A stretch of DNA of 64,000 nucleotides from Aggregatilineales bacterium (GTDB lineage: Bacteria; Chloroflexota; Anaerolineae; Aggregatilineales; Ch27): the NCBI GenBank assembly GCA_029976005.1, contig JARKOQ010000005.1:1-64000 (forward strand), given 5' to 3'. This document shows, piece after piece, positions 27,020 through 39,205 of the stretch. The notes beneath the pieces are model-generated. The model saw only the letters and a list, made by a program, of their open reading frames with translations, did no database searches and was not told the origin of the DNA. Every line of letters begins with the position of its first letter. The first letter of the stretch is position 1. A program made the position numbers and the translations under genes.

Positions 27020-27898
27020 ATGTATTCACAACCTGTTCGCAGGCCACGACGTGGTTTCCGGCCGATCTGGCTGGTCGCATTGATCCCGGCTTGCGGGTTA
27101 TGTCTGGTTCTGGGGGTGCTCCTCGTGGCACTGCTGCCTCGCCTGGCGTTGCAGGCGGTCGGCTTCACTCCCAAGGGAGACATGGAAGCGTTCTGGGTCG
27201 AGCAGCTTACCCTCCAGCCCGCCGCGACCGGCTCTCCGGTGCTGCCACTTCCGCCACCGGCCAACCTGAGCGCGGGAGGCGGCAGCGGGGCCGCGAATCC
27301 GACCCCGGTCGTGATCGCCGGGTCGGGCGGATCGGCGGCAAACGCGGCTGCCGCGGGATCGGCCTATCAGGGATGGTTCGCTTCCGCCACGTCGCCCGAC
27401 AGCGTGGTGGTGGCGGTCGAAGGACGTTCCAGCGTGACGCTCGATACCAGCCAGCCCGCGACGGATGACGTCGTGGTCGGACAGGCCACGGACGGCTATG
27501 GCCTGGGAGTCGTAACATTCGAGGAAGGCGATCTGGCGGGGATTTGCGCGTCACTGCTGCGCGGCTGTGCCACGGACCAATTCACCGTCCAGCGGGTCGA
27601 TTTTCGCCCGAAAGGCGCGGTGATTTATGGCCTGGTCAGCGTGGGGGGACTCTCCCAGGAAATCGGCGCGGTGCTGACCCTGACTGCCGATCTGAAAGGA
27701 TTTCAGGCGGCGGGGGTGGTCCTGAACGGGGCGTTGTATGCGATTCCGGCTCAGGGTGAGATCGCGGCCCTCGTCAACCGGTTGGTGAGCGACGGCAACG
27801 CGGCCCTGCGGGATATGACGGTTCAGGCGGCCGGATACGCGCTGACGCTGGTCCGGATCGAGATCACCGATTCGACGCTGACGCTGGTGCTGCGTTAG
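27020..27898 (+). CDS. Membrane-anchored protein of unknown function
   Basis: I do not recognise a family. The 292-residue product has a basic N-terminus (MYSQPVRRPRRGFRP), one transmembrane helix (about residues 18-42), a Gly/Ala/Pro-rich linker, and an extracytoplasmic domain from about residue 110 with alternating beta-like segments (YGLGVVTFEEGDL, VIYGLVSVGGLSQEIGAVLTL). The ATG at 27020 is preferred because GGAG lies nine bases upstream; the ORF is open from 26987. It diverges from tRNA-Cys and its last four bases overlap the end of the convergent LiaF-like gene. Confidence 0.6.
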   Translation: MYSQPVRRPRRGFRPIWLVALIPACGLCLVLGVLLVALLPRLALQAVGFTPKGDMEAFWVEQLTLQPAATGSPVLPLPPPANLSAGGGSGAANPTPVVIAGSGGSAANAAAAGSAYQGWFASATSPDSVVVAVEGRSSVTLDTSQPATDDVVVGQATDGYGLGVVTFEEGDLAGICASLLRGCATDQFTVQRVDFRPKGAVIYGLVSVGGLSQEIGAVLTLTADLKGFQAAGVVLNGALYAIPAQGEIAALVNRLVSDGNAALRDMTVQAAGYALTLVRIEITDSTLTLVLR

Positions 27899-28686
27899 GC
27901 GAGGTAGAGGCCGCCGGTCGCGCCCCGGATGGTGAATTCCAGGGGATCGACCGCGCCGGCGTAGTCCGGCGTGACGTAGCGGCGCTCGCCATCGGGCAGC
28001 CAGCGATCGCTTTCCAGGTGGACATCGAACAGGCTGCCGGCCTGGACGGTCACGGCGGCGGGGAGCCTGTCGGAGAGCGTCAGGTGGATGTGCCCCAGAC
28101 CGGAACGGAGCGTGATCGGCCCGGCGGGTGTGTCCGGGCCAATCACGTGAATGTCGCCGATGCCGGAGCTGATCCGGGCTGAACCGATCACCAGGCCGCG
28201 CATATCCACCTGGATTTCACCCAGATAGGCGCTCAGCTCGAGGTGCCAGGGAAGGTCTTTAGCCAGGCTGAAGTCCCAGTCGGCCAGGGACAGCAGCCAG
28301 GTTTTGCTGCGCTGCATGCTCAGGATGGCATGGCTGCCTTCCGCCTGAAGCTGGGGGCGGGAGCGGGCCGTATACTGGCCGGCGATCAGCCGCCCCTCGC
28401 GCTGCAAGGCCTGGATGCGCAGATCGAGCGCGCCGCTGTTGGCGCGCAGCGTGGCGGATTCGACGCTGCCGCGCGTGATGCCAAAATTCTGACTGGCCTT
28501 GCTGAGGCTCAGATCGCCGCTCAGCGCGATTTGCAGGCCTAACGCCACCAGCAGCACCGGCCAGAACTGGAGCACGTCGAAATCGAGCAGGAGGTAGTTC
28601 TGAAGCAGCAGGAGGACGCCCCCGCCGATCAGCACCAGCGGCCAGATCCAGAGCGCCATGCCGTATTGAGTCCCCTGCCGGTTCAT
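27895..28686 (-). CDS. LiaF-like envelope protein
   Basis: This 263-residue protein has two or three N-terminal helices (WIWPLVLIGGGVLLLLQNY and FWPVLLVALGLQIAL) followed by a beta-helix-like soluble part with repeated short strands (GEIQVDMRGL, IGDIHVIGP, LGHIHLTL), as in LiaF/DUF5668-type proteins linked to cell-envelope stress sensing. It starts four bases after the sigma factor gene on the same strand, using a GGAGGAGT ribosome site inside the sigma gene's last codons, so it is co-expressed with the primary sigma factor. Its role here is unknown. Confidence 0.65.
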   Translation of the reverse strand: MNRQGTQYGMALWIWPLVLIGGGVLLLLQNYLLLDFDVLQFWPVLLVALGLQIALSGDLSLSKASQNFGITRGSVESATLRANSGALDLRIQALQREGRLIAGQYTARSRPQLQAEGSHAILSMQRSKTWLLSLADWDFSLAKDLPWHLELSAYLGEIQVDMRGLVIGSARISSGIGDIHVIGPDTPAGPITLRSGLGHIHLTLSDRLPAAVTVQAGSLFDVHLESDRWLPDGERRYVTPDYAGAVDPLEFTIRGATGGLYLA

Positions 28687-28690
28687 GGGT

Positions 28691-29917
28691 CTACTCCTCC
28701 AGGAAGTCGCGCAGCATCAGAGCCGACGAGTGGCGCAGCCGGTTGAGCGCCTGGGCCTCAAGCTGGCGAACGCGCTCGCGAGTCACGCCGATTTCCTTGC
28801 CCACTTCTTCCAGCGTATGGATGCGGCCATCGTGCAGCCCATACCGCAACCGCAGGATGTAGGCTTCGCGATCCGGCAGCCGGTTGAGCAGCTCGGTCAC
28901 ATGCTCGCGCAGAAGCTGATCGGCGACCATCTGCGGCGGGGAAGGCACGCGATCGTCTTCGATGAAGTCCCCGATCTCGGCATCCTGCTCCTCGTTGGTC
29001 GGCTCGTCCAGACTGACCGGCCGGCGCGAAATCTCAATCAGCTCGGCCACCTTGTCCGGCTCGATCTCCAGCCGTTCGGCCAACTCGTCGAGCGTGGGAT
29101 CGCGCCCCAAATCCTGCGCCATGAGCGACGCGACGCGCATCAGCTTGTTGATCTGGTCGCCCATGTGGACGGGCACCCGAATGGTCCGGCCCTGATCGGC
29201 GACCGCGCGGCTGACCGCCTGGCGAATCCACCAGGTGGCGTAGGTGCTGAACTTGTGGCCGCGCTGGTATTCGAACTTGCGGACGGCCCGGATCAGCCCG
29301 ATGTTGCCTTCCTGGATCAGGTCGAGAAAGGGTACGCCCCGGCCCACGTACTTCTTGGCGATGCTCACCACCAGACGCGCATTGGCCCGGATCAGATGGG
29401 CCTGGGCTTCTTCGCCGTCGATGATGATGATCTGAAGCTCATCCGTGCTTTCGTCGGAAAGCTCATCCCCATACTTCTCAAGCTGCCTGCGAGCCAGCAC
29501 GCTGGCTTCGATCCGTTTGGCGAGGCTGACTTCCTGATCGGCCGTCAGCAGCGGAACTCGGCCGGCTTCCTTCAGGTAGAGGCCGACCACATCGTCGGTC
29601 TCCATTGCCTGCTGGTAGCCCGCGTCCTCGCGCAGATCGATGTCCTCAATGGTAATGAAATCGTCGCCGGACGCAACTTCGTCGCCTGCCTCCATGCGCT
29701 CCATGTCGGGGGCTTCGGCGACGATCGAGATGCCAGCGTCGGAAAGGCGCTCCAGCAGATCGTCCAGTTGGGCGACGTCGTCGCGCTCGGACTCAGGGAG
29801 AGCCTGGAATACATCGTCGAAAGTGAGGAATCCCTGTTCCTCTCCTTTGGCGAGCAGCACACTCAAAGCGGGTTGATACGTGACTTCCTGGACGGTCATG
29901 TCAAGATCGGTGCTCAT
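28691..29917 (-). CDS. rpoD: Primary RNA polymerase sigma factor (sigma-70/SigA)
   Basis: All regions of a group 1 sigma factor are visible: 1.1 (ALSVLLAKGEEQGFLTFDDV), 1.2 (DDVVGLYLKEAGRVPLLTADQE), 2.1-2.4 (LVVSIAKKYVGRGVPFLDLIQEG and FEYQRGHKFSTYATWWIRQA), 3 (IRVPVHMGDQINKL) and 4 (LRLRYGLHDGRIHTLEEVGKEIGVTRERVRQLE). The presence of region 1.1 argues for the housekeeping factor. The ORF is open from a TTG at 29938; the ATG at 29917 (408 residues) is preferred though no strong ribosome site is seen. A terminator-like hairpin precedes the start and a good promoter lies at 30088-30115. Confidence 0.95.
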   Translation of the reverse strand: MSTDLDMTVQEVTYQPALSVLLAKGEEQGFLTFDDVFQALPESERDDVAQLDDLLERLSDAGISIVAEAPDMERMEAGDEVASGDDFITIEDIDLREDAGYQQAMETDDVVGLYLKEAGRVPLLTADQEVSLAKRIEASVLARRQLEKYGDELSDESTDELQIIIIDGEEAQAHLIRANARLVVSIAKKYVGRGVPFLDLIQEGNIGLIRAVRKFEYQRGHKFSTYATWWIRQAVSRAVADQGRTIRVPVHMGDQINKLMRVASLMAQDLGRDPTLDELAERLEIEPDKVAELIEISRRPVSLDEPTNEEQDAEIGDFIEDDRVPSPPQMVADQLLREHVTELLNRLPDREAYILRLRYGLHDGRIHTLEEVGKEIGVTRERVRQLEAQALNRLRHSSALMLRDFLEE

Positions 29918-29936
29918 ACTGAACGATAACGACAGC

Positions 29937-29967
29937 AAAAAGCCTTGCCGTTACACAGGACAAGGCT
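29937..29967 (-). terminator. Terminator-like hairpin (possible attenuator) in the rpoD leader
   Basis: On the coding (minus) strand AGCCTTGTC and GGCAAGGCT form a stem (one G-U pair) with a 9-nt loop, directly followed by TTTTT. It ends about 20 bases before the ATG and about 110 bases after the predicted promoter, so it could stop transcription before the gene. Alternatively it folds the ribosome-binding region. Confidence 0.6.
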
Positions 29968-30398: not shown

Positions 30399-32486
30399 AT
30401 GAACAGGGTGAACTTCACTGGCGAGCAGATTGGACCTTATATTGTCCGGGAGAGAATCGGCCAGGGCGGCATGGCGGACGTCTATCGCGCCTTTCAGCCG
30501 TCGGTCAAGCGTGAAGTCGCACTGAAGGTTATCCCGCTGTTTGCCACGGGCCAGCAACAGGAGGTGCAGCTTCGCTTCAAGCAAGAAGCGGAGATGATCG
30601 CCTCTCTGGAACACCCGCATATCCTGCCCGTATTCGATTATGGGATTACCGATGAAGTTCTGTATCTGGCGATGCGGCTGCTGCGGGGCGGAACCCTGCG
30701 CGAACTGCTGCTGCGGGGCCTGATGCCCATCGATCAGGCGGCCGATTTGTTCGGCCAGGTTGCGCTGGCGCTGGGGCATGCCCACCGCCGCGGCGTGATT
30801 CACCGCGATCTCAAGCCCAGCAATGTCATGATCGATACCGAGCAGAATGCCTATCTGGCCGATTTCGGATTGGCCAAGGTACTCGGCGGATCTTCCCAAC
30901 TCACCACCACGGGGTCGATCATCGGCACGCCGGCCTACATGTCGCCTGAGCAGCTTCGGGGCGATCCGATCAATCACCGTTCGGACATCTACAGCCTGGG
31001 CGTGATCCTGTATCACATGCTGGCGGGGCGTCCGCCTTTCGAGGCGCTGACGACCTTCTCCCTGATCTACCAGCACGTCGAAAAAACACCACCGCCGCCG
31101 CGCGAATTCAACCCGCAGATTCCGCCCGATGTCGAACTGGTCATCCTAAGGGCTTTGCAGAAGAACCCGGACGAACGGTTCGAGAGCAGCGAGCACATGA
31201 CCGAGGCGCTCAATATCGCTCTCGGACGCAAGACCAGGCTGGACCCAAGCCTGCTCCAACCAACGCCGGATACGGTCGTGCTGCAAACATCCTCCCTGCC
31301 ATACCGGGGGGCGATCGATTCTGGCTCCGGCTCGATTCCGCCGTCGTCTTCCGGCATGACTGCGCCGTCGGGTGGATTGAGTGGGGCAACTTCACAGACG
31401 GTGTCTAACGTGGCAGCCCGGTCGAAAGGGCGTTTGCAGGCCAGAGGGCTGCTCGCTGCCCTGGCGCTGGTCGTGTTGGGTGGCCTGGCGGCGCTGATTC
31501 TCATCCTGACACAGAGTAATCCACCGCTCAAGCCGGCCGAGGTCCTGATGGGTGAAACGGGTACCCCTGAGGACGTGATCCCGACGGAACGGGAGATCGG
31601 GCTTGCCCGGCAATACCTGGGCAGCAGCGGTTTTATTGCATTTATTGTGTGCAATGAAGGCAGCGAGTTTTTCGCCGGTCAGGCGCGGCGGATGGCGGAC
31701 ATTGCCGCGCAGTGGAACCTGGATTTTCAGCGGTATGACAGCCGGACGGATGCCAACCAGCAGATCATCCAGATCGAGCGCGCCCGCGCGGATGGCGCCC
31801 GCCTGCTGGTGGTCTGCATCGTCGATGCCGAGATTGTCAGCGATACCCTCAGCGCGGCGGCCAAGGCCGGGATTCCCCTGATCCTTCAGAACATCAGCGA
31901 TCCACCGTCCTACAAAGGCGTCTTGATCACCCATGACAACTATCAACTGGGACAGGCTCCAGGTCGCTACGCGGGCCAGTACGTCGCGGAGCACATGGGT
32001 GGCGAGGCGAACGTCGTCATTCTGGATTATCCGGATTTGCCCGCGATCGTGGCGCGAGCCAACGGCTTGCAGGATGGCTTGCTCGAATTCGCGCCCGACG
32101 CGCACATCGTCGGACGCTATCTCGGCGGAACTTCCGAGTTCGCTGAGGAGTCGATCCGCGCTTTGATCGAGCAGGACATTCATTTTGACGTGATCCTCAG
32201 CATCAACGATGCTGGCGCGTACGGCGCGATCAATGCGCTATCCGCGGCGGGATTCAGCCCCGATTCCGTGGTCATCACTGGCGTGGATGCCGAAGTTCTT
32301 GCCCGGCGATATATTGCTGATGGCTATTTCATGCGGGCATCCGTCGGTGTGGGACAGGACGAGATTCCCCAGGTGGCGCTCAATCTCGCGGTCAAACTGA
32401 TGGCTGGGGCGACCCTGCCGCAGGTTATCTATACCGAGCCGGGCGATCTGATCACCGCGGAAAACGCGAATTCGGCCGGATCGTGA
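30399..32486 (+). CDS. Transmembrane Ser/Thr kinase with RbsB-like extracellular sugar-binding domain
   Basis: Residues 12-275 are a complete PknB-type kinase: glycine loop GQGGMADV (21-28), Lys43 in VALKVI, HRDLKPSN (Asp137), DFGLAK (155-160) and SPEQLRG. After a Ser/Gly-rich juxtamembrane linker there is one helix (about 350-371, LLAALALVVLGGLAALILIL). Residues 410-690 form a periplasmic-binding-protein type I domain (FIAFIVCNEGSEFFAGQARRM, ARLLVVCIVDAEIVSDTLSAA, DVILSINDAGAYGAINAL, VVITGVDAEVL), as in ribose/galactose-binding proteins. The design suggests a receptor kinase: an extracellular small molecule, probably a sugar, controls cytoplasmic phosphorylation. PknB-like kinases more often carry PASTA or other sensors. 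GNAT and membrane GAF genes follow. Confidence 0.9.
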   Translation: MNRVNFTGEQIGPYIVRERIGQGGMADVYRAFQPSVKREVALKVIPLFATGQQQEVQLRFKQEAEMIASLEHPHILPVFDYGITDEVLYLAMRLLRGGTLRELLLRGLMPIDQAADLFGQVALALGHAHRRGVIHRDLKPSNVMIDTEQNAYLADFGLAKVLGGSSQLTTTGSIIGTPAYMSPEQLRGDPINHRSDIYSLGVILYHMLAGRPPFEALTTFSLIYQHVEKTPPPPREFNPQIPPDVELVILRALQKNPDERFESSEHMTEALNIALGRKTRLDPSLLQPTPDTVVLQTSSLPYRGAIDSGSGSIPPSSSGMTAPSGGLSGATSQTVSNVAARSKGRLQARGLLAALALVVLGGLAALILILTQSNPPLKPAEVLMGETGTPEDVIPTEREIGLARQYLGSSGFIAFIVCNEGSEFFAGQARRMADIAAQWNLDFQRYDSRTDANQQIIQIERARADGARLLVVCIVDAEIVSDTLSAAAKAGIPLILQNISDPPSYKGVLITHDNYQLGQAPGRYAGQYVAEHMGGEANVVILDYPDLPAIVARANGLQDGLLEFAPDAHIVGRYLGGTSEFAEESIRALIEQDIHFDVILSINDAGAYGAINALSAAGFSPDSVVITGVDAEVLARRYIADGYFMRASVGVGQDEIPQVALNLAVKLMAGATLPQVIYTEPGDLITAENANSAGS

Positions 32487-32564
32487 TCGCCTGGCATTGC
32501 CTGGGGTTGACGGGAAACCCGCCACCTGGGAACAGGTTTTTTACCGGTTTGTTCTGCTGGTAGG

Positions 32565-33119
32565 ATGAGCGTGGAACAACATCTCACTTTCGCGATCCGG
32601 CCCGCAACCGCGGACGATTTACCCGCCTGCCTGGGACTGGATCATACGTCCGTCAGTGAATACGTGTGGCAGGTTGAAGCCGATCAAGTCCCGGATGGGA
32701 TGACCTATAATTTCCGAACCGTCCGCCTGCCTCGACCCATGTCGATTCTGTATCCGCACGAGCCTGAAGTCACATTGCAGGCCTGGCAGCTCCGGGATTA
32801 CTTCATCATCGCGGAAGGCGAGCATGGGATTTACGGCTACCTCAGCATGCATGCCGATCGGGTCTACAGCATTGGATGGATCAGGGCGCTGGTTGTCGAC
32901 CGGCCTCGCCGGCGGCTGCGCGTAGGGAGCGCCCTGCTGCTTCACTCCCAGCGCTGGGCCAGGATGAATGGTCTACGCCGGATCACAGTGGAAACGCAGA
33001 CCAAGAACTATCCGGCGATTTCATTTCTTCAACGCCACGGCCTGACCCTGTGCGGCTTTAACGATCGTTACTTTCTCAACCAGGATATCGCGCTCTTTTT
33101 CACTCAGAGCGTGCGGTAG
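32565..33119 (+). CDS. GNAT-family N-acetyltransferase
   Basis: This 184-residue protein has the GNAT fold: an early IRPATADDLPACLGLD, a central IGWIRALVVDRPRRRLRVGSALLLHSQRWA with the acetyl-CoA pyrophosphate loop (R-R-x-x-R-V-G-S variant of Q/RxxGxG/A), and KNYPAISFLQRHGLTLCGFND near the C-terminus. It would acetylate an amine of a small molecule or protein; the substrate is unknown. It lies 78 bases after the receptor kinase gene and 14 bases before the 7TM-GAF gene, so the three may form an operon. Confidence 0.82.
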   Translation: MSVEQHLTFAIRPATADDLPACLGLDHTSVSEYVWQVEADQVPDGMTYNFRTVRLPRPMSILYPHEPEVTLQAWQLRDYFIIAEGEHGIYGYLSMHADRVYSIGWIRALVVDRPRRRLRVGSALLLHSQRWARMNGLRRITVETQTKNYPAISFLQRHGLTLCGFNDRYFLNQDIALFFTQSVR

Positions 33120-33133
33120 TCTATGCTCGATTC

Positions 33134-35071
33134 ATGAACCCTGAACTCGAACTGTCATTTCTAGAGACGATCAATGAGACCCTGACCGCGATCATCGTGA
33201 TCGTGTCGGTCTCGATCCTGTTGTACAACCTGACTCGCAACCTGAGGGCGCGGGTAGCGCGCACGTCCAGCGTGCTGCTGGCCTGCGTGACGGGCGTCTA
33301 CATGGTGGACGTGCTGACCTCGCTTGATCCCACACTGGCCTCGCTCCGGGCGTGGCTGCGCGTGCAATGGGTGGGCATTGCCTTCGCACCGGCAGCCATG
33401 TTCCACCTTTCCGACGCGCTGCTGGCGACCACGGGGCTTGTCTCACGCGGGCGGCGGCGGCGTACGACTCGCGTGTTGTACGGTCTGAGTCTGGTCTTTC
33501 TCCTGCTGGCCCTGTTCACCGACACGGTGGTGTATGGCCTGGTGATGTCTCCGGCTCCACACCTGCTGCCGGGGCCTCTCTTCCTGGTCTACGCAGCCTA
33601 TTTCCTGGTCGCGGTGATTGTCTCGATCTACAACGTGATGCGGGCCAGGAAACGCTGCCGCACAACCTATACCCACCGCCGGATGGGCTATCTGCTGTAC
33701 TCGTTCACACTGCCCGCCTTCGGGATTTTTCCGTATTCACTGTTGTTCGGGGGGACTCAAAGCTCACCGCTGCTGTTCTGGTCGCTGGTCATCCTGAGCA
33801 ATCTCGGCATCGCCCTGATGCTGATCTTCATCTCGTATCCGCTCTCCTTTTTCGGCTCCAGCATCCCGGACCGGGTGGTGAAGTCCGAGTTGCTGAGCTT
33901 TTTCCTGCGCGGACCGGCTACGGGCATCTGGGTCCTGCTGGTGGTCCTGTTCCTCCCCCGCGCGGGGCGCGTCATGGGGCTCCAGAGCGAGGATTTCATG
34001 CCGTTCGCGGCGGTGGCCGTGGTCATGTTCTGGCAATGGGCAGTGTCGGTGCTGCTGCCTCCGCTCGAACGCATTCTCGTCTTTCAGGCCGATCAGGAGC
34101 AGGTCAAGACCATCCAGTCGATCGGCCAGCGTCTGCTCACTTCCAGCGATCTCGATCAACTGTTCGAGGCTATTCTGGCCGCCAACTGCGATCTGCTTCA
34201 GGTCCCCGTGGCGTTCATTGCCACTTCCGAGGGAGAGCAGGTCGTGATCAAGCAAATCGTGGGTAGTTGGACTCCCGGCGAAGACTGGGATGGCAGCGAT
34301 CTCAAGCGCCTTTTCGCGGATGGTCGCGCCAATCCCGACGAGATCGCGATCTGGGATGAGTTCTGGGTAGTGCCCTTGTACAGTGTGCGGATGGTCAATG
34401 GCGCCGCGAACGGCAATGGGCACAACCGTTTGCTGGGGGTGCTGGGCGTGCAGGCCCGCGCGGAGAGTCCGAATCTATCTTCGGACGAGCAGCATGTGTT
34501 CGAGATGCTGGTGCACCGCGCGGCTCAGGCGCTGGACGACCGGCTGCTGCAAATGGACGTATTTGCTTCCCTGGAGGGGCTGCTCCCCGAAATGGAGGCG
34601 ATCCAGCAACTGCGGGACATGACGCGCTATGGCGACTTTCCCGTCTTCGCGGCCTTGCAGAGTAGCGGTGAAGACCACGCCGATGTCGGCTTTGCCAACG
34701 CGGTCTTCGATGCCCTGCGGGACTATTGGGGCGGCCCCCGGCTGACTCAGAGTCCGCTGCTCAACCTGACTGTGGTTCGCGCCGCGATGCCGGAGAACGA
34801 TGGGAATCCGACCAAGGCCCTGCGCGCCGTGCTCCAGGAAGCCGTGAGCCGGCTGCGCCCGGTGGGGGAACGCAGCATGACCCGGTCGGAATGGACCCTG
34901 TTCAACATTGTCGATCTGCGCTTCGTGCAGGGCTACAAGGTGCGCGACGTCGCGACGCGGCTGGTCATGAGCGAAGCGGATCTGTATCGCAAACAGCGAG
35001 TTGCGGTTGAGCAGGTTGCGCGCGTTCTGGCCGACATGGAACGGAGCGCCAAGGAAAGCCAGACCCTGTGA
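33134..35071 (+). CDS. Multi-TM, GAF and helix-turn-helix protein
   Basis: This 645-residue protein has about nine helices in residues 15-310, the first seven resembling the 7TM input module of some histidine kinases. A GAF-like domain follows (about 325-465, beginning QSIGQRLLTSSDLDQLFEAIL). No histidine kinase or cyclase domain is present. The C-terminal part (about 480-640) ends in EWTLFNIVDLRFVQGYKVRDVATRLVMSEADLYRKQRVAVEQVARVL, whose last ~45 residues resemble a sigma-70 region 4-type HTH. It could be a membrane-bound sensor/transcription factor or a scaffold. It sits in a likely operon with the receptor kinase. Confidence 0.7.
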   Translation: MNPELELSFLETINETLTAIIVIVSVSILLYNLTRNLRARVARTSSVLLACVTGVYMVDVLTSLDPTLASLRAWLRVQWVGIAFAPAAMFHLSDALLATTGLVSRGRRRRTTRVLYGLSLVFLLLALFTDTVVYGLVMSPAPHLLPGPLFLVYAAYFLVAVIVSIYNVMRARKRCRTTYTHRRMGYLLYSFTLPAFGIFPYSLLFGGTQSSPLLFWSLVILSNLGIALMLIFISYPLSFFGSSIPDRVVKSELLSFFLRGPATGIWVLLVVLFLPRAGRVMGLQSEDFMPFAAVAVVMFWQWAVSVLLPPLERILVFQADQEQVKTIQSIGQRLLTSSDLDQLFEAILAANCDLLQVPVAFIATSEGEQVVIKQIVGSWTPGEDWDGSDLKRLFADGRANPDEIAIWDEFWVVPLYSVRMVNGAANGNGHNRLLGVLGVQARAESPNLSSDEQHVFEMLVHRAAQALDDRLLQMDVFASLEGLLPEMEAIQQLRDMTRYGDFPVFAALQSSGEDHADVGFANAVFDALRDYWGGPRLTQSPLLNLTVVRAAMPENDGNPTKALRAVLQEAVSRLRPVGERSMTRSEWTLFNIVDLRFVQGYKVRDVATRLVMSEADLYRKQRVAVEQVARVLADMERSAKESQTL

Positions 35072-35237: not shown

Positions 35238-35266
35238 TTGACAAGGGATTTCGTGCTTCATATAAT
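35238..35266 (+). promoter_or_regulatory. Perfect consensus sigma-70 promoter
   Basis: TTGACA, a 17-base spacer and TATAAT match the consensus at all twelve positions. It drives the S1-domain protein gene, with a start of transcription near 35273. The rest of the 272-base gap (35072-35237) shows nothing clear. Confidence 0.88.
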
Positions 35267-35287: not shown

Positions 35288-35344
35288 ATGACTCATTGGA
35301 TGGAACCTGAGTTTCTGGAAATTGTGAGGAGGAAAGGGATTTGA
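35288..35344 (+). CDS. Possible 18-codon leader ORF coupled to the S1-domain gene
   Basis: An ATG 15 bases after the predicted transcription start opens MTHWMEPEFLEIVRRKGI. Its TGA overlaps the next ATG by one base (TGATG), and its last codons contain the GAGGAGGAAAGGG ribosome site of the next gene. This is the layout of a translationally coupled leader peptide, but the ORF is short and its own ribosome site is weak. Confidence 0.3.
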   Translation: MTHWMEPEFLEIVRRKGI

Positions 35345-36339
35345 TGTCGAACAGACTCCGTCGGGGGGATCGTACTGTTTCGTCACCGCCAGCCGTAGAC
35401 GAGGCGTACTGGGCAGCGTTACTCAAGGAAGGCGATATGGGGGCCGAGGAAGAGACCCCCAGCGAAGAGTGGGGGGGCCTCGAAGCGGCCAGAACCTACA
35501 GCCAGCCAGCGGATGGGCAAGAGGATCATGCCTTTCCTCACCCCTCCGATTGGGAGGAAATGCGCCGGATCATGAACTCGGACACGTCGGTTGATCTGCC
35601 AGTGATTGGCAGCAACCGGGGCGGGTTACTGGTCCAATGGCAGAGCTTACGGGGTTTTGTCCCCGCCAGCCAGTTGATCGACTTTCCGCCGGTCACGGAA
35701 GAGCATCACCGGCGCCAGGAATTGAGCAACTATGTCGGGCAGCATCTTTCTCTGCGGGTGATCGAGCTGGATGAGATGCAGAACCGGCTGATTCTCTCGG
35801 AGCGGGCCGCGCAGGTGAATCCGGGGACGCGCTCTGCCATCCTCGACCGCCTGAGCCGGGGGGATACGTGTGAAGGCTGCGTGACCAACATCTGCGAGTT
35901 CGGCGTGTTCATCGATCTCGGTGGAGTCGAAGGCCTGATTCATATTTCCGAGTTGAGCTGGGGCCGGGTAGGGCATCCCGGCGACGTACTCAAGCGGGGC
36001 GAATGGGTCAAGGTCTACGTGATGGAGGTCAGTAAGGACCTTGGCCGGGTGGCCCTGAGCCTGAAACGTTTGCAGCCCGATCCCTGGGAGACGGTCCAGA
36101 CTCGCTATCACGTGGGACAGATTGTTTCCGGAGTGATCACCAATGTGGTCGATTTCGGCGCGTTTGCTTGCATCGAGGAAGGGCTGGAAGGGCTGATCCA
36201 CATCTCGGAACTGGCGGAAGGACATTTCCTGCACCCGCGCAATGTGGTGCGAGAAGGCGAGACGGTGCGGGCGCGGATTCTCAACATCGACGGCCCTTCG
36301 CGCCGCCTGGGACTCAGCCTGCGCGAGAAAGAGGACTGA
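35344..36339 (+). CDS. S1 RNA-binding domain protein (ribosomal protein S1-like)
   Basis: The 331-residue product has an acidic N-terminal ~80 residues and then three S1 OB-folds: a degenerate one (about 80-155, GSNRGGLLVQWQSLRGFVPASQL) and two good ones (GDTCEGCVTNICEFGVFIDLGGVEGLIHISELSW and GQIVSGVITNVVDFGAFACIEEGLEGLIHISELA). It likely binds mRNA at the ribosome or acts in RNA turnover. Bacterial S1 usually has four to six repeats, so this is a short form. The ATG at 35344 has a strong GGAGGAAAGGG site; the TTG three bases earlier is less likely. A consensus promoter implies strong expression. Confidence 0.87.
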   Translation: MSNRLRRGDRTVSSPPAVDEAYWAALLKEGDMGAEEETPSEEWGGLEAARTYSQPADGQEDHAFPHPSDWEEMRRIMNSDTSVDLPVIGSNRGGLLVQWQSLRGFVPASQLIDFPPVTEEHHRRQELSNYVGQHLSLRVIELDEMQNRLILSERAAQVNPGTRSAILDRLSRGDTCEGCVTNICEFGVFIDLGGVEGLIHISELSWGRVGHPGDVLKRGEWVKVYVMEVSKDLGRVALSLKRLQPDPWETVQTRYHVGQIVSGVITNVVDFGAFACIEEGLEGLIHISELAEGHFLHPRNVVREGETVRARILNIDGPSRRLGLSLREKED

Positions 36340-36412: not shown

Positions 36413-36490
36413 GTGTGCCCGGTAGACGGAACAAATGTGCTATGATTGGTCTGTTGGCGCACTGTCTGGTCTGGCCCTGGTAGTGTTACA

Positions 36491-39205
36491 ATGTGGGCGC
36501 AGTTCTGGGATTGGATACAAGGTAAACCGGGTTCAATGGCGGGTCAAAAACAACCACCGTTCTGGCAATCCACACTGGATAAGCTCAAAAGCAGGCTCAA
36601 GCGATCCCCTGGCGCGAAGCCGCCGGCTTCGAACCGAGGCGGACGGCGACGCGCGGGCGTGACTCCGGCTCAACGGGTTCAAGATTTCGTTGAACGGGCG
36701 CGAGATATCCTTGCCAATCTGCCGGAAGGGAGCGACGAGATCGCGGCCCTCCTGCTGTTGGTATTTGGCGTGGTTTCCCTGCTGGCGCTGCTCAATTTCT
36801 CGCCGGAGGAGGCCGTTACCAGCAGTTGGGCGCAGGCTATTCGCCAGCTTTTCGGGTTGGGCAGCTTTGTGGTTGCGTTCGGCATCCTGGGGTTGGCCGT
36901 GATGATTCTGCTGCCCAAGCTGAACCTGGAACTCCAGTGGCATTTTCCGTGGTCGAGGCTGCTGGCAATCGAGATAGCCTTTATTTCGCTGCTGGCGCTG
37001 TTTCACTTGCTGGCCAACGATCCTGAGCCGCGCGCCCTGGCGCGCGCCGGGGGTGGCGGAGGATACGTCGGCTGGGCGCTGAGCCAACTGGTGGCCGTGG
37101 TCTTCGACCCGATCTCCTCGACGATCCTGTACGGTCTGATCTTCCTCATCGCGCTTGGCCGGGCGGCTGGCATCCGGCGAAGCCATCTCAGCCTGGTTTT
37201 GAACTGGCTGCGCGAGTCTGTCCAAAAACTGGCCGACCGGCTTGAGAAGGAGACGGAAGAGCTGGCCGATCGGGCGGAAGCGTCCGCTTCCTCGGAACCC
37301 GCGCCCGTGGCAGCACCGGCGCGCCTGGCGCGGCCTTCGGTGGTGCCACGCCAGGCGCCCTTGCCACACGTGCGCCCGGCGGTCAGCCCACCGGCCAGCG
37401 ACGATGCCGACGAGGATGGCTTTGCCGAGGAGGATTCCGAGGACGACTCGTGGCTGGATCGGGAGCATTTACCGCATTACGTCCAGCCCGATCAGGAACG
37501 ACTGGAACGCGGGCTTAGCTCGCCCGGTATTCCCGGTGAGCGGCCATCCGTCGTCCAGCGCGACGAGGAGGATGGCTCGGCCATGCCGGCGCTGGCCCGG
37601 CCCAAGAAGGCTTCGACCGCCTACAAGACCGTGCGCGGGGCGGATGGGCAGATCATCCGGCAGTTCAGCGTGGATGATCTTCAGGAGCAGCGCAAGGTGG
37701 GCAAGCGGCAGGATGAACTGCCCCCCTTTGATCTGCTCGAAGACAACGACCTCAATCGCCCAACCGACGAGGAGATCAACAAGAACGCGCGGATCATCGA
37801 AGAAACCCTGCGCGAATTCGACATCCACGTGGAAGTTGTCGACATCAAGATCGGGCCGGCCGTGACCCAATACGCGGTTCAGCCTTTCAAGGAGATGATC
37901 AATGAGGAGGGCGAACGGTTCCTGTACCGGGTGCGGGTAGGGCGGATCGCCGCGCTGGAGCGCGACCTGGCCCTGGCGCTCTCCGCCAAACGGCTGCGCA
38001 TCCAGGCCCCCGTGCCGGGCCATACCTATGTCGGCGTGGAAGTGCCGAACCGCGAGCCGAGCATTGTTTCCCTGCGGGGCGTGATGGAGAGCGCGACCTT
38101 CTATCGCCAACGGTCACCGCTGGCCTTGCCGCTGGGGCGCGACGTGTCCGGGGCCTCTTTCGTGGCCGATCTGGCGACGATGCCTCACCTGCTGATCGCC
38201 GGGACGACCGGCTCCGGCAAATCGGTCGCGCTCACGGCGATGACGGCGGCGCTGGTCATGAACAACCCGCCGGATCGCCTTAAGCTGGTCCTGCTGGATC
38301 CCAAGATGGTGGAACTGACCCGCTTCCAGGGATTGCCGCATCTGCTGGGACCGGTCGAGGTCGAGCAGGAACGCATCATCGGCGTCTTGCGCTGGGCGGC
38401 GCGGGAGATGGATCGGCGCTACAAGCTGCTGGAAGTCGCCGCCGCGCGCAACATCGAGACCTACAACCGGGCGCTGGGTCGCCGTCGCAAGGACGAGCAT
38501 CTGCCCTACGTTGTCATCATCTTCGACGAGATCGGCGACCTGATGCTCTCGCGGCCCGAGGAGACCGAAAAGCTGCTGGCCCGCCTGGCCCAGATGGCCC
38601 GCGCGGTGGGTATTCACCTGATGGTCGCCACCCAGCGGCCGTCGGTGGATGTGATCACCGGGTTGATCAAGGCGAATTTCCCCGCCCGAATTTCATTCGC
38701 GGTGGCGTCAGGCGTTGATTCACGCGTCATTCTGGACTCGGTCGGCGCGGAGACTCTGATGGGGCGCGGTGACATGCTGTATCAGGCGGCAGATGCCGCC
38801 GGCCCGCAGCGCTTGCAGGGCTGTTTCGTTTCAGATGGCGAATTGCAGCGGATTCTGGAGTATTGGGCCGATTGGACCGGGCAGCAGGTCGCCGAAGGGC
38901 TTCTCGACGCCCACCGGGTCTCTCCCTGGGAACGCGGCATGACCCGGCGCGAAATCTTGTCCGAGACCGATCCCATGTTGGAGGAGGCGATTCAGATCGT
39001 GCTGGAAGCCGGAGAAGCCTCCGCCTCGCTGCTTCAACGCCGCATGGGTGTGGGATATCCGCGCGCGGCCCGGCTGATGGACCTCATGCAGGAACTGGGG
39101 ATTGTGGGCCAGGCGACATCTGGCGGCCGGACGCGCGAAGTTCTGTATCGACCGGGCGACGATCCCTTCAAGAACATCGTCGATAAGCGGGTACGGGGCG
39201 AATAA
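36491..39205 (+). CDS. ftsK: FtsK/SpoIIIE DNA translocase
   Basis: This ~904-residue protein has four N-terminal helices (from EIAALLLLVFGVVSLLALL to ILYGLIFLIALG), a long Pro/acidic linker, and the RecA-like motor: Walker A AGTTGSGKSV, Walker B VVIIFDEIGDLM, and MVATQRPSVDVITGLIKANFP. A winged-helix gamma domain (ASASLLQRRMGVGYPRAARLMDLM) at the end would read the polar KOPS-type sequences. It pumps chromosomal DNA through the closing septum. The start is uncertain: the ATG at 36491 overlaps an extended -10 (TGTTACAAT), so the ATG at 36536 may be the true start. Confidence 0.93.
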   Translation: MWAQFWDWIQGKPGSMAGQKQPPFWQSTLDKLKSRLKRSPGAKPPASNRGGRRRAGVTPAQRVQDFVERARDILANLPEGSDEIAALLLLVFGVVSLLALLNFSPEEAVTSSWAQAIRQLFGLGSFVVAFGILGLAVMILLPKLNLELQWHFPWSRLLAIEIAFISLLALFHLLANDPEPRALARAGGGGGYVGWALSQLVAVVFDPISSTILYGLIFLIALGRAAGIRRSHLSLVLNWLRESVQKLADRLEKETEELADRAEASASSEPAPVAAPARLARPSVVPRQAPLPHVRPAVSPPASDDADEDGFAEEDSEDDSWLDREHLPHYVQPDQERLERGLSSPGIPGERPSVVQRDEEDGSAMPALARPKKASTAYKTVRGADGQIIRQFSVDDLQEQRKVGKRQDELPPFDLLEDNDLNRPTDEEINKNARIIEETLREFDIHVEVVDIKIGPAVTQYAVQPFKEMINEEGERFLYRVRVGRIAALERDLALALSAKRLRIQAPVPGHTYVGVEVPNREPSIVSLRGVMESATFYRQRSPLALPLGRDVSGASFVADLATMPHLLIAGTTGSGKSVALTAMTAALVMNNPPDRLKLVLLDPKMVELTRFQGLPHLLGPVEVEQERIIGVLRWAAREMDRRYKLLEVAAARNIETYNRALGRRRKDEHLPYVVIIFDEIGDLMLSRPEETEKLLARLAQMARAVGIHLMVATQRPSVDVITGLIKANFPARISFAVASGVDSRVILDSVGAETLMGRGDMLYQAADAAGPQRLQGCFVSDGELQRILEYWADWTGQQVAEGLLDAHRVSPWERGMTRREILSETDPMLEEAIQIVLEAGEASASLLQRRMGVGYPRAARLMDLMQELGIVGQATSGGRTREVLYRPGDDPFKNIVDKRVRGE

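Follow-up and report, generated by a model that had tools for sequence, protein, structure and literature searches.

The gene at positions 33134 to 35071 of the window (the whole 64,000-nt stretch of DNA analysed here) encodes a 645-aa membrane protein. We read its product, with a probability of about 0.6, as a membrane-anchored one-component transcription regulator that is core in its class and often paired with a GNAT acetyltransferase, the receptor kinase beside it being a family-specific newcomer. In the proposed mechanism, the nine-helix receptor part would sense a signal at the membrane or across it, a GAF-like region in the cytoplasm would relay or integrate this signal, and a C-terminal HTH resembling sigma region 4 would bind DNA, so that transcription would be controlled from the membrane. 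The window lies on contig C147 of a draft genome of 4.76 Mb that is 82% complete. An earlier note on this DNA had described three successive genes, for a receptor kinase, a GNAT acetyltransferase and a 7TM/GAF/HTH protein, and all three are present as described (Table 1). The GNAT and 7TM genes are separated by 14 bp and may be co-transcribed. A terminator-like site between the kinase and GNAT genes, at 32524-32537, was considered and dropped, since such sites were not in excess over shuffled sequences (3 found versus 4.1 expected); its fold z-score was 0.07.

Table 1. Positions in the window of the genes and predicted protein regions at the 7TM locus
Feature	Position	Strand	Evidence or remark
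Ser/Thr kinase with extracellular-type Peripla_BP_4 domain	30399..32486	+	Neighbour in the window's own family only; outside the conserved unit
184-aa GNAT acetyltransferase; its gene is a conserved partner upstream of the 7TM gene	32565..33119	+	Pfam Acetyltransf_1, 5e-13
645-aa membrane protein (7TM protein): predicted nine-helix receptor, GAF-like region, sigma-4-like HTH	33134..35071	+	
Predicted membrane region, residues 16-310	33179..34063	+	HisKA_7TM (19-221) plus two further helices; Pfam, family-averaged hydropathy, charge pattern
GAF-like region, residues about 330-470	34121..34543	+	Sub-threshold in the window protein; best homologue match 1.5e-6
Predicted C-terminal sigma-4-like output domain, residues 519-640	34688..35053	+	AlphaFold2 and Foldseek
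Predicted HTH, residues 584-636	34883..35041	+	Recognition helix around SEADLYRKQRVA (613-624); entropy, invariant residues
Three-S1-domain protein; conserved downstream neighbour	35341..36339 (ATG at 35344)	+	Pfam S1, 2.5e-43
FtsK-like protein; conserved downstream neighbour	36446..39205	+	Named from its sequence

The membrane region of the window protein was matched by the Pfam model HisKA_7TM (PF16927) with 34.9 bits, above the curated cut-off of 28.6, and the same model matched 40 of 58 homologues at an E-value of 1 or better. When hydropathy was averaged over 106 sequences of the family, about nine hydrophobic segments were seen. In the same average, loops 1, 3, 5 and 7 were rich in Lys and Arg and loops 0, 2, 4 and 6 were not, a pattern that indicates an N-out, C-in topology. 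The protein is therefore predicted to have about nine membrane helices instead of the seven previously described. A full-length AlphaFold model made from three sequences had low confidence (pLDDT 46), with about nine long helices in the membrane region, and was left out of the fold search. Beyond the helices, Pfam matched GAF in the window protein below its cut-off, and GAF models matched up to 18 of the 58 homologues, the best at 1.5e-6; the GAF-like assignment is weak in the window member. Pfam gave no match to HisKA or HATPase domains in the window protein, and kinase domains were absent among the families listed for the 58 homologues. Thus, the protein appears to lack a histidine kinase core and to be something other than a sensor histidine kinase. 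Of the earlier picture of a 7TM/GAF/HTH protein without a kinase, the receptor-type input and the missing kinase domain stand, the GAF region is visible here at a sub-threshold level, and the number of helices is revised.

The C-terminal part of the protein, a domain of about 120 residues, was modelled separately. AlphaFold2 prediction of residues 505 to 645 with two close homologues reached a pLDDT of 82.7 and placed helices at about 584-598, 603-609 and 614-644, an arrangement like that of an HTH. When this model was compared with the PDB using Foldseek, sigma region 4 structures ranked first: the region 4 chains of 3hug (probability 1.00, target TM-scores 0.64-0.70), region 4 of SigR (5fgm, 0.73) and region 4 of SigmaE (2h27, about 0.66). 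KorA, another HTH protein, formed the main other group of matches. Because the E-values of this search were 0.13 or worse, the predicted resemblance to region 4 of ECF sigma factors is a statement about fold only. The Pfam model Sigma70_ECF scored 14.3 bits in the window protein, under its cut-off of 21.1, while sigma-70 models matched 8 to 10 of the 58 homologues. PDB profile searches with C-terminal and full-length alignments returned nothing significant, and hhalign comparison of the C-terminus with regions 2, 3 and 4 of the window's own RpoD, for which the templates were shallow, gave no signal in any region. The suggestion that the C-terminus is sigma-4-like is thus in line with the predicted fold and its best structural matches, but the sequence models fall short of their cut-offs in the window protein.

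Within the family, conservation is highest in the HTH, whose mean entropy over 106 sequences is 0.99 bits, compared with 1.93 for the membrane region and 2.32 for the GAF region, and residues R619, K620, Q621 and A624 are identical in 106 of 106 distinct proteins. Such an invariant recognition helix suggests that one DNA element, or one partner, has been conserved across the lineage. A profile of the C-terminal domain also picked up additional copies in the genomes of other Chloroflexota, a single genome having as many as 15. Twenty loci carrying such copies were fetched (L178-L197) and a subset of their proteins was scanned; the domain was fused to a receiver (L179, L181), to AAA/STAND and TPR regions (L178, L180, L193), to nSTAND2 (L185) and to HisKA_7TM regions, some of them under cut-off (L189, L190, L194). 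By profile, the output domain of these receiver, STAND/TPR and 7TM fusions is homologous to that of the 645-aa protein (E-values 1e-24 to 1e-8), but it is joined to other input domains, and its recognition helix varies (for example YREQR or FHRAR) where the 645-aa family has a fixed YRKQ. The variety of these fusions is what would be expected of a signalling output module, and the domain is probably one; a STAND-fused copy could be an adaptor instead of a DNA binder.

The 7TM gene is a near-universal core gene of the class. Of the 154 genomes of the order, 147 had a match, as did 290 of the 298 genomes sampled in the class (187 of the 189 of good quality). The matches mostly cover residues 8 to 640; these tallies include some genomes with partial matches only, and a few genomes have none (G037 is an example). 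Across the phylum, 73 of 251 sampled genomes had a match, and full-length homologues beyond the class were found in families f71, f72, f82, f108 and f111. Coverage beyond Chloroflexota came from a single pattern scan of genome contigs, which matched two close relatives and no others. The gene is present in a single copy in the window's genome; many other genomes have second matches to the C-terminal part only.

When 57 regions with a callable 7TM gene were clustered by their neighbours, a GNAT gene was found at position -1 in 36, an S1 gene at +1 in 29 and an FtsK gene at +1 to +3 in 27, and no other neighbour cluster exceeded 19 loci. When a GNAT profile was applied to more loci, 92 distinct same-class proteins had sufficient flanking sequence, and GNAT was adjacent to the 7TM gene in 71 of them; outside the class it was adjacent in 0 of 8. 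An S1 gene followed in 53 of the 92. Mapped on the tree, the GNAT label required 8 changes, compared with 25.5 in shuffles. The conserved order is thus GNAT-7TM-S1-FtsK, without the kinase. Strong GNAT homologues also occur away from the 7TM gene (G143, G158, G185, G245), and one genome (G544) has a strong GNAT homologue with no full-length 7TM match; GNAT is therefore separable from the 7TM gene. Naming its substrate was attempted and dropped: the families nearest to the window protein, RimI and the streptothricin acetyltransferases, were all below NCBIfam cut-offs.

Several other features of these neighbourhoods were recorded. Upstream of the S1 gene, at 35238-35266, there is a promoter with perfect consensus elements (TTGACA, 17 bp, TATAAT). 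A near-consensus promoter follows the 7TM gene in 21 of 107 relatives, as against 0 of 174 for the reverse strand. In the window, genes for RpoD and a LiaF-like protein (27895-29938) are located upstream of the kinase gene in divergent orientation. RpoD, mostly with a LiaF-like gene, precedes the GNAT-7TM unit in part of the order (L118-L132); this adjacency is confined to 14 loci. In four families (L090, L091, L094 and L096) the 7TM gene follows matches to AA_kinase, RRF, undecaprenyl diphosphate synthase and cytidylyltransferase, the Pfam search having been made on L090 only; this is the usual pyrH-frr-uppS-cdsA order. Outside the class (L101-L105), the 7TM gene and a gene for either a lone receiver or a receiver-GGDEF protein overlap, which hints at a connection there with two-component or cyclic-di-GMP signalling. 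Within the class, two-component genes were not recurrent neighbours in the 57 clustered regions.

The earlier note had proposed that the three genes may form one signalling module in which the receptor kinase would phosphorylate the 7TM/GAF/HTH protein. The kinase does precede GNAT in four genomes, which make up every 7TM-carrying member of the window's family. No other locus examined keeps this three-gene order, even though the 7TM gene is found almost throughout the class. The kinases near the gene at L104/L105 and L137/L139 lack a Peripla_BP_4 domain. Elsewhere in the order, full-length homologues of the kinase are encoded on other contigs than the 7TM gene in G025, G061, G065 and G055, and G037 has such a homologue with no 7TM match. 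Moreover, the window's genome contains 11 strong kinase matches, so a single kinase near the 7TM gene is weak evidence for a connection. Given that nearly all sampled genomes of the class carry the 7TM gene, the core function of this gene cannot rest on the kinase beside it in the window. Gene order and distribution together rule out the kinase as part of the conserved unit; it is best seen as a later, family-specific neighbour of an older GNAT-7TM unit. The idea that the 7TM protein is the target of the kinase is not supported, and we regard a three-gene phosphorylation module as very unlikely.

Three further explanations were weighed against the one-component reading. The sigma-4-like domain might act by protein contact, docking on RNA polymerase or a sigma factor and so tethering or modulating polymerase at the membrane. 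Region 4 of sigma factors docks on the beta flap of RNA polymerase, and the fold match is to this very region. The option of a conserved partner for the invariant helix keeps this explanation alive, a recognition helix unchanged across two classes being unusual for an operator-specific regulator, and RpoD does lie upstream of the unit in part of the order. Nevertheless, the other sigma regions are absent, the invariant residues are on the predicted DNA-reading helix and the RpoD adjacency is restricted to the 14 loci; we consider such protein contact unlikely. Slightly less likely in our estimation is a C-terminal domain that serves as a signalling adaptor to partners such as response regulators and does not bind DNA. 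The overlaps with receiver and receiver-GGDEF genes outside the class fit such a role, as does the N-terminal position of related domains in STAND/TPR proteins, but an HTH fold with invariant basic residues does not, and the class lacks recurrent two-component neighbours. Marginally more doubtful again is a two-protein switch in which GNAT acetylates the 7TM protein and sets its activity: the close and frequent adjacency of the two genes speaks for it, while the separability of GNAT, and nearest solved relatives that act on small molecules or protein N-termini, speak against it.

In favor of a membrane-anchored one-component regulator, we counted the HisKA_7TM region without a kinase core, the N-out/C-in topology, the confident HTH model with sigma region 4 as its top fold match, the conservation of the HTH, the module-like fusions, the near-universality of the gene and the GNAT-7TM pairing. 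Counted against it were the Foldseek E-values, the non-significant sequence profiles, the silent hhalign comparison with RpoD region 4, the weak GAF match in the window member and the possible adaptor role of a STAND-fused copy. A bolder proposal, to which we give about the same low credence as to the adaptor, is that this core membrane receptor of a major Chloroflexota lineage uses its region-4-like domain, with its unvarying recognition helix, to retain at the membrane either RNA polymerase or a fixed promoter element. It would then be a membrane-tethered partial sigma factor that directly sets housekeeping or envelope transcription.

The 645-aa protein can be compared with three known systems. 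HisKA_7TM sensor histidine kinases (PF16927) have a homologous seven-helix input region followed by a GAF-like region, but the 645-aa protein has no HisKA or HATPase domain, two predicted extra helices and an HTH as its putative output. Region 4 of sigma-70 factors, especially ECF sigma factors, resembles the fold predicted for the C-terminal HTH; the 645-aa protein differs in being membrane-anchored, in lacking other sigma regions and in showing no significant sequence similarity to region 4. Transmembrane transcription regulators (one-component, CadC/ToxR-like and others) combine membrane helices and a DNA-binding-type domain with no kinase step, as the 645-aa protein appears to do; they are widespread, about 56% of them are single-pass, and they were surveyed with Pfam models of DNA-binding domains (PMC10269533). 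The 645-aa protein has the transmembrane region that defines them, as about nine N-terminal helices with the HTH at the C-terminus, but in the window member the HTH is seen at the fold level and not by a Pfam DNA-binding model, so that it is not a confirmed member of this group. No paper on this architecture was found in the literature searched, the coverage of which excluded most subscription journals. The best reading is a new architecture within a known class, the membrane-anchored one-component regulators.

Since its HTH falls below Pfam thresholds, surveys based on Pfam would tend to miss this protein, which suggests that they can overlook membrane-bound regulators. The analysis also sets a deeply conserved GNAT-7TM pair apart from a misleading local neighbour, the kinase. 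An unannotated gene present in almost every sampled genome of the class, with an HTH missed by standard models, offers a good entry point to the coupling of membrane state to transcription in these little-studied bacteria.
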